From Fredinandcohnia onubensis (GTDB lineage: Bacteria; Bacillota; Bacilli; Bacillales; Bacillaceae_L), in the NCBI RefSeq assembly GCF_031181385.1, contig NZ_JAPSKV010000006.1, positions 130,379-194,378 of the forward strand: a DNA stretch of 64,000 bases. The letters are read 5' to 3'. Under the pieces are notes generated by a model. That model made no database searches, was not told the origin of the DNA, and worked only from the letters and a program-made list of their open reading frames with translations. This document shows, one piece after another, positions 56,574 to 59,706 of the stretch. The first letter of the stretch is position 1. Each line of letters opens with the position of its first letter. Made by a program: the position numbers and the translations under genes.

Positions 56574-57480
56574 TCAAGCCTTTCAAATTAAAGTACCAGC
56601 AAGTACGGCAAATCTTGGACCTGGATTTGATTCAGTAGGGCTAGCGGTCAATCGCTATTTAACTCTCCAAGTTGAACCAAGTAAAGAGTGGGAGTTTGTC
56701 CTACAATCAGCAGAAATTGCAGATACTCCAACGGGTAAAGAAAATTTTATCTATCAAATTGCAGAAAAGGTAGCTCATGCTTTCTCCTATGAGCTTCCTC
56801 CCTGCAAGGTATATGTTCATAGCAATATTCCACTAGCTAGAGGTCTGGGAAGTAGTGCAGCCGCTATAATCGCTGCAATCGAACTAGTTAATGAACTTTT
56901 TAATCTTCAATTAACAAACCAACAAAAGCTTGATTTAGCCTGTGAATTTGAGGGACATCCCGATAATGTAGGTGCATCGCTATATGGTGGCTTAGTCATT
57001 GGCAGTCATCGTGAAAGCAAAGACACTGATCTTGTCCATGTGAATGAGCTATCCTTTGATTTGGTGGTTGTCATTCCGCCCTATGAACTAAAAACAAAGG
57101 ATGCCCGAAGTGTGCTTCCGAGGGAATTATCCTATCCTGAGGCGGTTAAGGCAAGCTCGATAAGCAATGTAATGGTCGCTGCTCTTTTAACCAAAAACCT
57201 TGAATTAATGGGGAAAATGATGGAGCTCGATCTTTTCCATCAACAATACCGAGCAAAGCTTATTCCTGAATTTAGTCACATCCATCAGGTTGCAAAAAAG
57301 GCAGGAGCATTTGGAGTAGCAATAAGCGGAGCGGGGCCAACAGTCATTTGCTTCACTGAATGTGGACAAGGAAAACAGCTAAGAGATGAGTTATCATCTG
57401 AATTTGAAGGATATCAGGTTGAAGAAGTATCAATTGAGAAAAACGGCAGTGTGTTAACTTCACTTTCATTACATGAATAA
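56563..57480 (+). CDS. thrB: homoserine kinase
   Basis: A 305-residue GHMP kinase phosphorylating homoserine. ATP-binding [12 protein letters not shown] (about 88-99), N-terminal [17 protein letters not shown] and the C-terminal [12 protein letters not shown] are diagnostic. The ATG 56563 overlaps thrC by 11 bp and follows AGAGGAG; an upstream in-frame start at 56476 is inside thrC and lacks a site. It completes hom-thrC-thrB, the usual Bacillus order. Confidence 0.97.
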
Positions 57481-57482
57481 AG

Positions 57483-57512
57483 AAGCGAAACCGAAATGGG
57501 TTTCGCTTTTTT
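57483..57512 (+). terminator. terminator of the threonine operon
   Basis: AAGCGAAACC/GGTTTCGCTT, 10-bp perfect stem, 6-nt loop, T6. Confidence 0.9.
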
Positions 57513-57527
57513 GAGTACAGAATACTT

Positions 57528-57561
57528 AAATACTGCCACTAATTCGGAAATACTGCCACTA
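57528..57561. repeat. short direct repeat
   Basis: AAATACTGCCACTA occurs at 57528-57541 and 57548-57561, a 20-bp period, between the convergent terminators. Confidence 0.6.
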
Positions 57562-57575
57562 GCATTTTTAATCAT

Positions 57576-57603
57576 AAAAAAATGCCTCAATAACTTGAGG
57601 CAT
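57576..57603 (-). terminator. terminator of the NifU-type gene
   Basis: ATGCCTCAA/TTGAGGCAT, 9-bp stem with TAAC loop; on the minus strand followed by a T6 run. Confidence 0.85.
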
Positions 57604-57617
57604 CACTCATTTATCTA

Positions 57618-57854
57618 TTAGAAAACTTGTTCAACTTCAACGATTCCTGGGACTTCTTCTAATAACGCACGTTCAATCCCAGCTTTTAAAGTAATTGTAG
57701 AGCTTGGGCAGCTTCCACAAGCACCTAAAAGACGAAGCTTTACAACACCATCTTCAATATCAACTAAATCACAGTCTCCGCCATCACGAAGTAAAAATGG
57801 ACGAAGTTTATCTAATACTTCTTGTACTTGCTCTCTAATATCTAATTCAGCCAT
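57618..57854 (-). CDS. yutI: NifU C-terminal domain Fe-S carrier (YutI, NfuA type)
   Basis: A 78-residue stand-alone NifU-like domain. The cluster ligands are C46 and C49 in [10 protein letters not shown], and the family core [20 protein letters not shown] precedes it. Such proteins carry a 4Fe-4S cluster at a dimer interface from SUF to clients, for example aconitase or LipA. The ATG follows AAAGGAG on the minus strand. Divergent from yuzD across a palindrome-rich gap. Confidence 0.93.
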
Positions 57855-57918
57855 TTCGATTGACTCCTTTCCTCATACCTTTATAATTATTATAATCTGT
57901 TTGCTGGAAAAAATCTAT

Positions 57919-58010
57919 TAACTTTATTTAGTAGATGTTCCACTCCCAAATGTAAATAATACTAAAATAAAAGTATACAATTTAGTTTGGGTACCGTCTA
58001 AATAAAGTTA
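57919..58010. repeat. inverted repeat pair flanking 66 bp
   Basis: TAACTTTATTTAG (57919-57931) and its exact complement CTAAATAAAGTTA (57998-58010) are 13-bp arms 66 bp apart. No open frame lies between. The shape recalls a small non-autonomous element, but I see no target duplication. Confidence 0.5.
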
Positions 58011-58100
58011 ATGCCTCCGGCGGATGCCACAGATTTTCAAAGGAAAGTTTTCGAGCATGCTCGAAAAAATCTGGGCGCAATTGCGCCAAAGCGCATTTGA
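58011..58100. repeat. cluster of palindromes
   Basis: Within 90 bp: TTTTCGAGCATGCTCGAAAA (58048-58067, 20-bp perfect palindrome), GGCGCAATTGCGCC (58074-58087, 14-bp perfect palindrome), and CAGATTTT (58030) with its near-reverse AAAATCTG (58066). The stretch GCCTCCGGCGGATGCC before them is also nearly symmetrical. The GC content is well above that of the surroundings. It looks like an extragenic repeat; the rest of the 406-bp gap before yuzD holds nothing else I can name. Confidence 0.65.
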
Positions 58101-58260
58101 TTACCAAATAATGCATTTTTCCAGTTTTTAATTACAAACCCTTATTGAGAATCCTAAGATGTGTACTTTGTATCTTTTGGTGTCTATTCTAACAGATTTT
58201 TAGTACAATTAAAAAAGAAATGATTGTAGACGATTTAGTTGGGGAAAAGGAGAGCATAAA

Positions 58261-58590
58261 ATGGAAAAGCAAAAGGTCGAGATTTGTGTGTACGGTGCAG
58301 AAATATTATGTCCGAGTTGTGTCAATCTTCCTTCTTCAAAGGAAACTTATGAGTGGCTTGAAGCGGCATTAAGCAGAAAGTTCCCAAACCAACCATTCGA
58401 TATTACTCATGTTGATATTTTTGACCCACCTGGGGACGAAGAGAAAAAAACATTTGCCACACGAGTAATTGAGGAAGATATGTTTTACCCAGTTGTAGTT
58501 CTAGAGGGCACCATTGTCGGAGAAGGAAGCCCAAAGCTAAAAACCATTTATGCAGAAATGCAGAAATACGGATACAAAGCAGCTGAATAA
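58261..58590 (+). CDS. yuzD: YuzD family protein, thioredoxin-like (DUF1462)
   Basis: A 109-residue DUF1462 protein with a CxxC (C17-P-S-C20) at the first strand end of a probable thioredoxin fold and the conserved EETFYPVVVLEGTIVGEG-like region (here about 76-93). The family is common in Bacillales, and Staphylococcus aureus has a homologue of solved structure, function unknown. ATG follows AAAGGAG. In B. subtilis yuzD is next to yutI, as here. Confidence 0.85.
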   Translation: MEKQKVEICVYGAEILCPSCVNLPSSKETYEWLEAALSRKFPNQPFDITHVDIFDPPGDEEKKTFATRVIEEDMFYPVVVLEGTIVGEGSPKLKTIYAEMQKYGYKAAE

Positions 58591-58597
58591 TGTACAT

Positions 58598-58637
58598 AAA
58601 AAAACACGGAAAGTCATTGACTATCCGTGCTTTTTTT
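58598..58637. terminator. bidirectional terminator yuzD / yutJ
   Basis: CACGGA/TCCGTG and inner AGTC/GACT stem flanked by a seven-base A run and a seven-base T run. Confidence 0.85.
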
Positions 58638-58638
58638 A

Positions 58639-59706
58639 TCACCCATTATGATACTTATACATCCATAATACCCCGGATTTCAACATACGAGGTACGCGTC
58701 CTGTGAGAGCTCGTTCTGCAACTAATCCAAATCCTTCTTTTTTACCTAGAGATCCAAGAACACCTTTTAGCTTAATTTTTGGAAACTCAGCAGGTGGTTC
58801 TTCGCCCTTCCAACGCTTTAAAAGGACTTGAACAATTTGTTCAGCCTGGCCTTCTGCAAGTTGAGCACTTGGCGCATGTGGTAAGCTTGCACAGTCACCA
58901 ACAACATATACATGTTCATCATTTGGGAGATTGTGTTGCTTTGTTAATACCACTCGGCCACTTCCGTCTTTTTCAACCTCTAAGTCACGAACAACTTTAT
59001 TAGGTTGGATACCAGCTGTCCACACAACAACATCACTTTGAACAGGTTGGTCGTTATTAAAGAGTACGTTCTCTTCCACTCTTGTAATATTTGAGTTATT
59101 GATAATCTCAACTTCGTTCTTATCAAACCAGTTCTCTACATACATACTCAATTTTTCTGGGAAAGCTGAAAGTATATGTTTCCCTCTATCGAATAGTTTG
59201 ATTTGTAAGTCGGGTCTGCTTTCATAAAGCTCACTCGCAAGTTCAACTCCACTTAGGCCTGCTCCAACAATGGAAACAGTAGCACCAGCGGGAAGATTAT
59301 TAAGTTTCTGATAGGTTTTTCTGGCTTTATCGATGGTTTGGATGCTGTATGTGTATTCCTTCGCACCTGGAACATTGTGATATTTGTCCTCGCACCCTAA
59401 TCCAATTATTAAATCATCATACCTAACTGATTCTTCATCATTAATGTGAACAAGCTTTTCATTCATATCGATGCCCGTAATCTCCCCATACTTTACGTGC
59501 AAACGTGGATGTTCTGGAAATGTTACACGTACATGGGAGTCTGAAATAGTCCCTGCTGCAAGCGCGTAAAATTCCGTTTTTAAACTATGATAAGGCGCAC
59601 GGTCAATTAAGGTTATCTGTATATCCTCGGGTAATTGATTTGGCAAAAGGCGTTGTAAAACCCGCATTCCACCATACCCTCCACCTAAAATGACAAGATT
59701 TTTCAT
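58639..59706 (-). CDS. yutJ: type-II NADH dehydrogenase-like flavoprotein YutJ
   Basis: A 355-residue pyridine nucleotide-disulfide oxidoreductase-fold protein. FAD-binding GGGYGGMRVLQ (about 8-18), NAD-binding GAGLSGVELASEL (about 153-165) and the second FAD motif VYVVGDCAS (about 269). It lacks a long C-terminal membrane-anchoring part, as its family members do in Bacillus. It is a paralogue of the yumB product further on, yet the two proteins diverge strongly. Electron acceptor unknown; menaquinone is likely by family. Confidence 0.9.
   Translation of the reverse strand: MKNLVILGGGYGGMRVLQRLLPNQLPEDIQITLIDRAPYHSLKTEFYALAAGTISDSHVRVTFPEHPRLHVKYGEITGIDMNEKLVHINDEESVRYDDLIIGLGCEDKYHNVPGAKEYTYSIQTIDKARKTYQKLNNLPAGATVSIVGAGLSGVELASELYESRPDLQIKLFDRGKHILSAFPEKLSMYVENWFDKNEVEIINNSNITRVEENVLFNNDQPVQSDVVVWTAGIQPNKVVRDLEVEKDGSGRVVLTKQHNLPNDEHVYVVGDCASLPHAPSAQLAEGQAEQIVQVLLKRWKGEEPPAEFPKIKLKGVLGSLGKKEGFGLVAERALTGRVPRMLKSGVLWMYKYHNG

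Follow-up and report, generated by a model that had tools for sequence, protein, structure and literature searches.

The window, that is, the whole stretch of 64,000 nt analysed here, belongs to the genome of Fredinandcohnia onubensis (G000) and contains a dense cluster of palindromes between two divergent genes, a NifU-domain gene on the minus strand and a DUF1462 gene on the plus strand, which we take to be yutI and yuzD in keeping with a preliminary description of this DNA. All dyads listed in that description are present, although the inverted pair, given there as 13 bp, is a perfect repeat of 15 bp (57917-57931 and 57998-58012, spaced by 66 nt); a perfect 20-bp palindrome, TTTTCGAGCATGCTCGAAAA, lies at 58048-58067 and a 14-bp palindrome, GGCGCAATTGCGCC, at 58074-58087. 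The region had also been called GC-rich, which holds only in relative terms, as the core of the element described below has 44% G+C. Folding of 57912-58100 yielded -55.2 kcal/mol compared to -33.8 +/- 3.9 kcal/mol for 200 dinucleotide shuffles (z -5.5, none of the 200 as good), and the opposite strand folds with a z of -5.0. Fourteen Rfam matches up to an E value of 5 were obtained within 57000-59000; none of them overlaps the element, and its window copy shows no match to Bacillaceae-1 RNA. Terminators of the flanking genes can be rejected as the origin of the palindromes, as had been anticipated, since these belong to a unit that is missing from the orthologous site of the related genome G006.

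Alignment of the orthologous site revealed that the window and the related genome G004 carry about 181 bp (57922-58102) which G006 lacks. The empty site of G006 reads ...AAAAAATCTATTAA joined directly to AACCAAATAATG..., whereas the filled site of the window reads ...ATCTATTAA, followed by the element (CTTTATTTAG...GCGCATTTGAT) and by TACCAAATAATG.... The locus is organized as follows:

57618-57854, minus strand: neighboring gene with NifU domain (yutI-like, Pfam family match), outside the element
57922-58102, plus strand: inserted element of about 181 bp, oriented towards yuzD, a gap in G006 and present in G004 at the orthologous site
57917-57931, plus strand: left arm of the left hairpin, in which ATTAA (57917-57921) is also found in the empty site and 57922-57931 belongs to the element
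57932-57997, plus strand: apical part of the same hairpin, spanning 66 nt (from the tabulated copies)
57998-58012, plus strand: inner arm of this hairpin, pairing with 57917-57931
58013-58025, plus strand: conserved linker GCCTCCGGCGGAT (core alignment)
58026-58076, plus strand: central hairpin, holding the 20-bp palindrome 58048-58067 (core alignment and structure)
58078-58099, plus strand: right hairpin, consensus CAAATACGCC-AA-GGCGYATTTG (core alignment and right-end pattern)
58100-58102, plus strand: right end of the element, a boundary fixed only to within a few bases
58261-58590, plus strand: neighboring gene of the DUF1462 family (yuzD-like, Pfam family match), outside the element

The anatomy was derived from 104 tabulated copies, 103 of them distinct, as L031 is the orthologue of the window copy. 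In the consensus, a TTTAA-like flank precedes a left hairpin with the outer arm CTTTATTCAG and the inner arm CTGAATAAAGTTAAA, which is followed by the linker GCCTCCGGCGGATGCC, the central hairpin, the right hairpin and a terminal AT. The last base of the window's inner arm departs from this consensus and pairs with the target flank, while the 14-bp palindrome overlaps the 5' half of the right hairpin. The apical part of the left hairpin measures either 0-19 nt or about 50-78 nt in most other copies. On reading the sequences, terminal inverted repeats were found to be lacking, as the left end TTTAACTTTATTCAG is repeated in inverted form internally and not at the right end GGCGCATTTGAT. In most copies the right hairpin is bordered by GGGCG- or GGGCA-like bases and AT, and a GTAG or CGTC tag is absent. 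Two resemblances to known structures were dismissed: the apical segment GGGGTTCAAACCCC, considered as a tRNA-like T-arm, folds as a plain hairpin (folded once, within a consensus), and the AAC/GTT pairs at the base of the stem, which would be in line with an integron attC site, are not kept in L024, L060, L066_1527 and L073.

Reading of individual loci identified single right hairpins (L309, L316, L318, L320, L328), single left hairpins (L338, L339) and copies without the central part (L311, L341), so that modules of the element can evidently be lost, as judged from their sequences. At the leader of a gene that is presumably asnS-like, Bacillus timonensis carries the whole element (L164), whereas G000 retains only the right hairpin with equal borders, which indicates that erosion can leave single hairpins behind.

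A search of 57900-58260 against its own genome returned 66 matches, of which 40 are long. From 39 copies, a covariance model was built for the 105-nt core; it identified 60 copies in G000 (E ≤ 0.01, with 150 of 2946 first-look candidates scored). The core of the window copy (57998-58102) scores 122.7 bits and is the only strong one of the three matches in the window up to an E value of 5, the others reaching 14.7 and 11.1 bits. Nine genomes of the genus hold between 27 and 95 copies each, in sum 524 (E ≤ 0.001), with 60, 61 and 51 copies in G000, G006 and G001, respectively. At E ≤ 1e-5, the element was found in 11 of 17 genomes across the family and, with stricter filters, in 22 of 396 genomes and 9 of 135 genera across the order. 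A pattern scan of named genomes yielded at least 107 stretches, and the loci listed from it (80) include Siminovitchia, Bacillus timonensis, Psychrobacillus, Ureibacillus, Lysinibacillus, Schinkia and an Alkalihalobacillus MAG. A right-end pattern with up to three mismatches occurs at 57 places in G000, 96 in G005 and 41 in G008, its reversed version at none. For the left-end pattern, some chance matches have to be reckoned with, as its reversed control was found at five places in G000 and eight in G008. Viral contigs and phages gave no match to the element, and blastn of a full copy against 72,556 plasmids returned nothing. In a literature search that excluded most subscription journals, no publication describing this hairpin element family was found, which is not a claim that the literature lacks one.

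The flanks of 26 G000 copies were joined without the element and searched in G004 and G006. At 23 of the 26 sites an uninterrupted match through the junction was obtained in one or both relatives, and at 16 of these in both; the remaining three (L027, L066_2223, L103) produced split matches in both relatives and were read as filled. Such a proportion of empty sites indicates, by comparison of sequences, that the element family has moved recently. Since both relatives are empty at 16 of the 23 sites and the junctions are similar, the comparison of G000 with these two relatives argues for insertion rather than loss. No target-site duplication was seen in the empty and filled pairs (the 23 sites and the window site), nor was a duplication of TTTAT found at their junctions. 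At distances of more than 6 bp from the junction, the filled and empty sequences show 0.4-4% difference, compared to 11-37% at positions -6 to -1 and 24-39% at +1 to +6. The left flank is rich in TAA but variable, and a fixed target of 4-5 nt was not seen in the tabulated copies. The earlier suggestion of a mobile repeat is thus borne out, both by the genome search, in which the sequence proved to be far from unique (60 model matches in G000), and by its presence in G004 and absence from G006 at the window site. The attribute "degenerate" that accompanied this suggestion fits less well, as many copies lie close to the consensus, their stems are kept by paired changes and 23 of the 26 tested insertions are missing from at least one close relative.

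The conservation of the hairpins was analysed in two alignments. Standard pairs make up 98.4% of the 1011 cells in the core, and changes on both sides of a stem were found in 48 cells, compared to 17.4 in shuffles, none of 500 reaching 48; sliding the pairing partners destroys this signal. Further pair types in the core stems show no excess (12 compared to 11.3 in shuffles). For the left stem, 87 of the 104 copies were used, 17 being dropped (L031 as the orthologue, the others for more than three mismatches or a missing anchor). Watson-Crick pairs occupy 817 of 870 cells, compared to 743 +/- 4 when the arms were dealt randomly (maximum of 760 in 2000 shuffles), an observed value that is favored by picking the left arm for its best match to the inner arm. 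For the flank portion of the stem, the count is 354 of 414, compared to 324 +/- 4 and a maximum of 336. In L060, L066_1527 and L073, much of the arm is changed on both sides.

The relation of the inner arm to the flank before insertion was assessed at 16 sites, namely the 23 empty sites minus eight (L007, L024, L030, L060, L062, L075 and L100 with gaps at the junction, L070 without an anchor), with the window site added. The fit of the inner arm to the flank amounts to 0.74, compared to 0.61 +/- 0.04 for shuffled arms (2 of 5000 as high). Measured against the consensus arm the gain is slight, with 53 compared to 50 of 74 positions. At the eight sites where the last four bases of the flank are unchanged, the inner arm beats the consensus arm in six cases, ties in one and loses in one. 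It is conceivable, though doubtful, that insertion is guided or templated by pairing between the inner arm and the target flank, with the stem crossing the left border and the bases at the junction being rewritten during insertion, either from the flank to match the arm or from the arm to match the flank. If true, this would amount to a hairpin-templated, duplication-free transposition carried out by an as yet uncharacterised enzyme.

Analysis of the genomic context revealed a pronounced orientation. The next ORF lies in sense to the element for 47 of the 60 copies in G000, compared to 11 in antisense and two undecided, and for 38 of 44 copies elsewhere (five antisense, one undecided). A second set of 66 copies, which partly overlaps in species and leaves out copies near the ends of a locus or without a readable right end, contains 50 sense and 16 antisense cases. 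Between tandem genes, sense prevails over antisense by 69 to 8 and 39 to 5, the 69 including the window copy (L001) and its orthologue L031, which were mis-scored as tandem because yutI, with 78 aa, falls under the ORF cut-off of 80. Only a few copies were flagged inside an ORF (4 of 104 and 4 of 66, with a crude ORF caller). A Shine-Dalgarno motif in sense follows within 40 nt of the right end in 19 of 60 copies in G000 and in 9 of 43 elsewhere, compared to 3 of 60 and 1 of 43 on the mirrored left side. The window copy itself ends 158 nt before the start codon of yuzD, and at this distance and between divergent genes an effect on yuzD is not implied.

Several copies are preceded by known leader elements. 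When the 57 loci with the 60 copies of G000 were scanned against Rfam, a riboswitch or PyrR leader was located ahead of four copies, in sense and 0 to about 105 nt upstream: a purine riboswitch (L062), a SAM riboswitch (L068), a PyrR site (L011) and a cobalamin riboswitch (L024). In other genomes, a T-box precedes copy L087. If these riboswitches and the PyrR site work as usual, the copies associated with them must be located in transcribed leaders. Two further arrangements were observed. In G081, a copy has a TPP riboswitch match on either side, both on one strand (L080 1809-2252), and L073 (G000:C5:111663-111827) is situated between the halves of a terminator-like inverted repeat, TAGGTAGCC and GGCTACCTA, of the upstream gene.

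Of 103 copies scanned for terminator-like sites (stem of at least five pairs, loop of 3-8 nt, T-rich tail), 85 have one on the antisense strand and eight on the sense strand; in a control of one mononucleotide shuffle for each of 104 copies, the numbers were 10 and 4. Because the terminator-like sites are mainly antisense, expression should be cut by an antisense copy within an operon but mostly not by a sense copy, which is a possible reason for the orientation. Part of the bias could also stem from a preference for one replication strand or from insertion itself favoring one strand.

In long copies, a 67-nt match to Bacillaceae-1 RNA (RF01690) was identified with 57-83 bits (gathering score 35). 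It is present in 15 of the 60 copies of G000 and in copies of G023 and G110. Since it occupies three different positions, namely in the central hairpin, on the 5' side of this hairpin (L095, L096) or at the inner left arm, most of which it replaces (L120, L138, L126), it was probably acquired more than once. Bacillaceae-1 RNA is also found outside the element, with 35 matches in all in G000 and 113 in G016. One of these matches, L145 1501-1567 (G007:C3:11256-11322), lies in an apparent 16S-23S rRNA spacer near the start of the 23S rRNA. Bacillaceae-1 RNA is given as a table row in one publication (PMC2864571), and the idea that its reverse strand carries CsrA sites is put forward in another (PMC4333381). 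For this orphan RNA, its occurrence as a module nested at several positions in mobile repeats bears on the question of its nature.

Other repeats were encountered in the same contexts. A second family of hairpin repeats (CGCATTAACTGGCAGTAAG ... CTGCCAGTAAAAGCC ... TGATTGAAGTTTCACTTTA) is nested in the central hairpin of the element in G008 (L322, L323), occurs in L129 (G006) and in L142 and L126 (G001) as well and can carry Bacillaceae-1 RNA. In L178 and L197 (Psychrobacillus), L231 (Ureibacillus) and L153 (Bacillus sp. V3B), the left or the right hairpin of the element is interrupted by small hairpins of about 30-40 nt such as TGTTTTCTGCGACGAGCTTGCGCAGGAGCA. A tandem array of units of about 20 nt (CGTTAGCAAAACTAATTCAG), starting at 3006 of L351 (G008:C12, near 83706), shows a mere resemblance to the left arm.

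Taken together, the palindrome cluster is very probably a copy of a non-autonomous mobile element of Bacillaceae and allied families, consisting of three hairpins. The element is dispersed in many copies, was inserted recently and without target duplication and is placed mostly between genes and in sense, often just upstream of a Shine-Dalgarno motif. In this model, a separate enzyme would move the element in trans, and mainly sense copies would survive, since the terminator-like hairpin and T-run of the antisense strand would stop transcription. In a leader, the element would be transcribed as a row of hairpins, with possible effects on mRNA stability and a possible block to antisense transcripts.

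A cis-regulatory RNA, comparable to a riboswitch-like leader that is kept by selection at fixed positions and is not mobile, would account for the conserved structure with paired changes, the strongly conserved linker, the sense orientation, the leader position and the location behind riboswitches. It is very unlikely nonetheless and refuted as the sole explanation by the empty sites in close relatives, found for the window and 23 of the 26 other copies; the patchy distribution across distant genera and the copies that are nested by another repeat or broken into single hairpins also speak against it. A regulatory role as a later use of the mobile element is possible. The case serves as a warning that conserved structure and leader position are insufficient to call a new regulatory RNA. 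Movement through RNA by a reverse transcriptase, of the group II intron type acting in trans, would explain the sense bias and sites behind terminators. On reading, six of the 60 G000 copies were indeed found to follow a terminator-like hairpin and T-run (L011, L024, L062, L063, L066_1527, L075), and the altered junctions would fit as well. This route is nevertheless highly improbable: PF00078, which matches in six of the nine genomes of the genus, has no match in G000, G006 and G001 despite their 60, 61 and 51 copies. In addition, truncated copies keep either end, so that the 5'-truncation signature of target-primed reverse transcription is lacking, as illustrated by the single left hairpins (L338, L339) and a copy truncated on its 3' side (L347).

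A derivative of the IS200/IS605 family, moved as single-stranded DNA with hairpin ends by a Y1 transposase, is a rather unlikely source of the element. It would be consistent with the missing target duplication, the hairpins at both ends and the TAA-rich left flank, and the complementarity of the target flank to an internal arm recalls the guide-target pairing of this family. The inner arm, however, is located 3' of the hairpin loop, and we know of no IS200/IS605 guide in this position. In spite of its many recent insertions, G000 has only two Y1 (PF01797) matches, L150 and L151 (G000:C37:12430-12756 and G000:C9:97449-97640), both with stop codons, and the end motifs of the element are absent from both loci; the junctions, moreover, are often altered. 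By eye, long open frames in L151 resemble TnpB. The wider search for a mobilising enzyme found no transposase with ends matching the element. The extra right-end places that were read (one in G000, 19 in G008) are element copies, deletion derivatives, nested copies and single hairpins, and no transposase was recognized by eye among the ORFs beside eight right-hairpin places. Likewise, reading of right ends and left ends in G000 and G008 (for the left ends of G008, among the matches listed) revealed no autonomous partner that shares them. Descent from a lineage shared with the MITE-like repeats bcr1-bcr3 of the Bacillus cereus group, of which the element would be a divergent relative, is barely probable. 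These repeats are described in two reports as short, non-coding, of high copy number, intergenic, often transcribed in UTRs and endowed with mobile features (PMC6542083, PMC3446304), with a repeat of the TTTAT motif (PMC6542083). By this description, the element resembles them in size class, copy number and intergenic and UTR location, and TTTAT occurs in its left arm CTTTATTCAG. In contrast, its ends carry no TTTAT repeats, its junctions no TTTAT duplication, and it is unmatched in the 72,556 plasmids although bcr1 is reported on plasmids too (PMC6542083).

What was an unexplained palindrome cluster turns into a member of a family that counts hundreds of copies and has moved recently, so that comparisons between close strains offer a way to study its insertion. 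A mobile element has also come to light that lies ahead of genes mostly in one orientation, for which a terminator-like site only on the other strand would be a simple and testable reason. Among known systems, the element is MITE-like in being short, non-coding, strongly base-paired and present in many copies, but differs from a MITE in having neither target-site duplication nor terminal inverted repeats. With IS200/IS605-derived elements it shares hairpins near the ends and the lack of a target duplication, whereas an intact Y1 gene in G000 and a fixed target of 4-5 nt were not seen and the junctions are altered. An extragenic palindromic unit in the sense of REP, the other possibility raised in the preliminary description, is a palindrome of 20-40 bp with a GTAG or CGTC tag at one end (PMC3733652); this identity does not fit an element that measures about 110-260 nt, lacks such a tag and has its three hairpins in a set order and orientation. 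Bacillaceae-1 RNA, although nested in 15 of the 60 G000 copies, is not part of the window copy and also exists outside the element. The BOX, RUP and SPRITE repeats of Streptococcus pneumoniae are reported to cluster and insert into one another, one BOX forming a compound leader with two T-boxes (PMC3049150). Going by this description, the element resembles BOX elements in its nesting, but those repeats are called currently dormant (PMC3049150), whereas the element shows many recent insertions. It is filed with the small non-autonomous interspersed repeats of bacteria, as a variant of its own.
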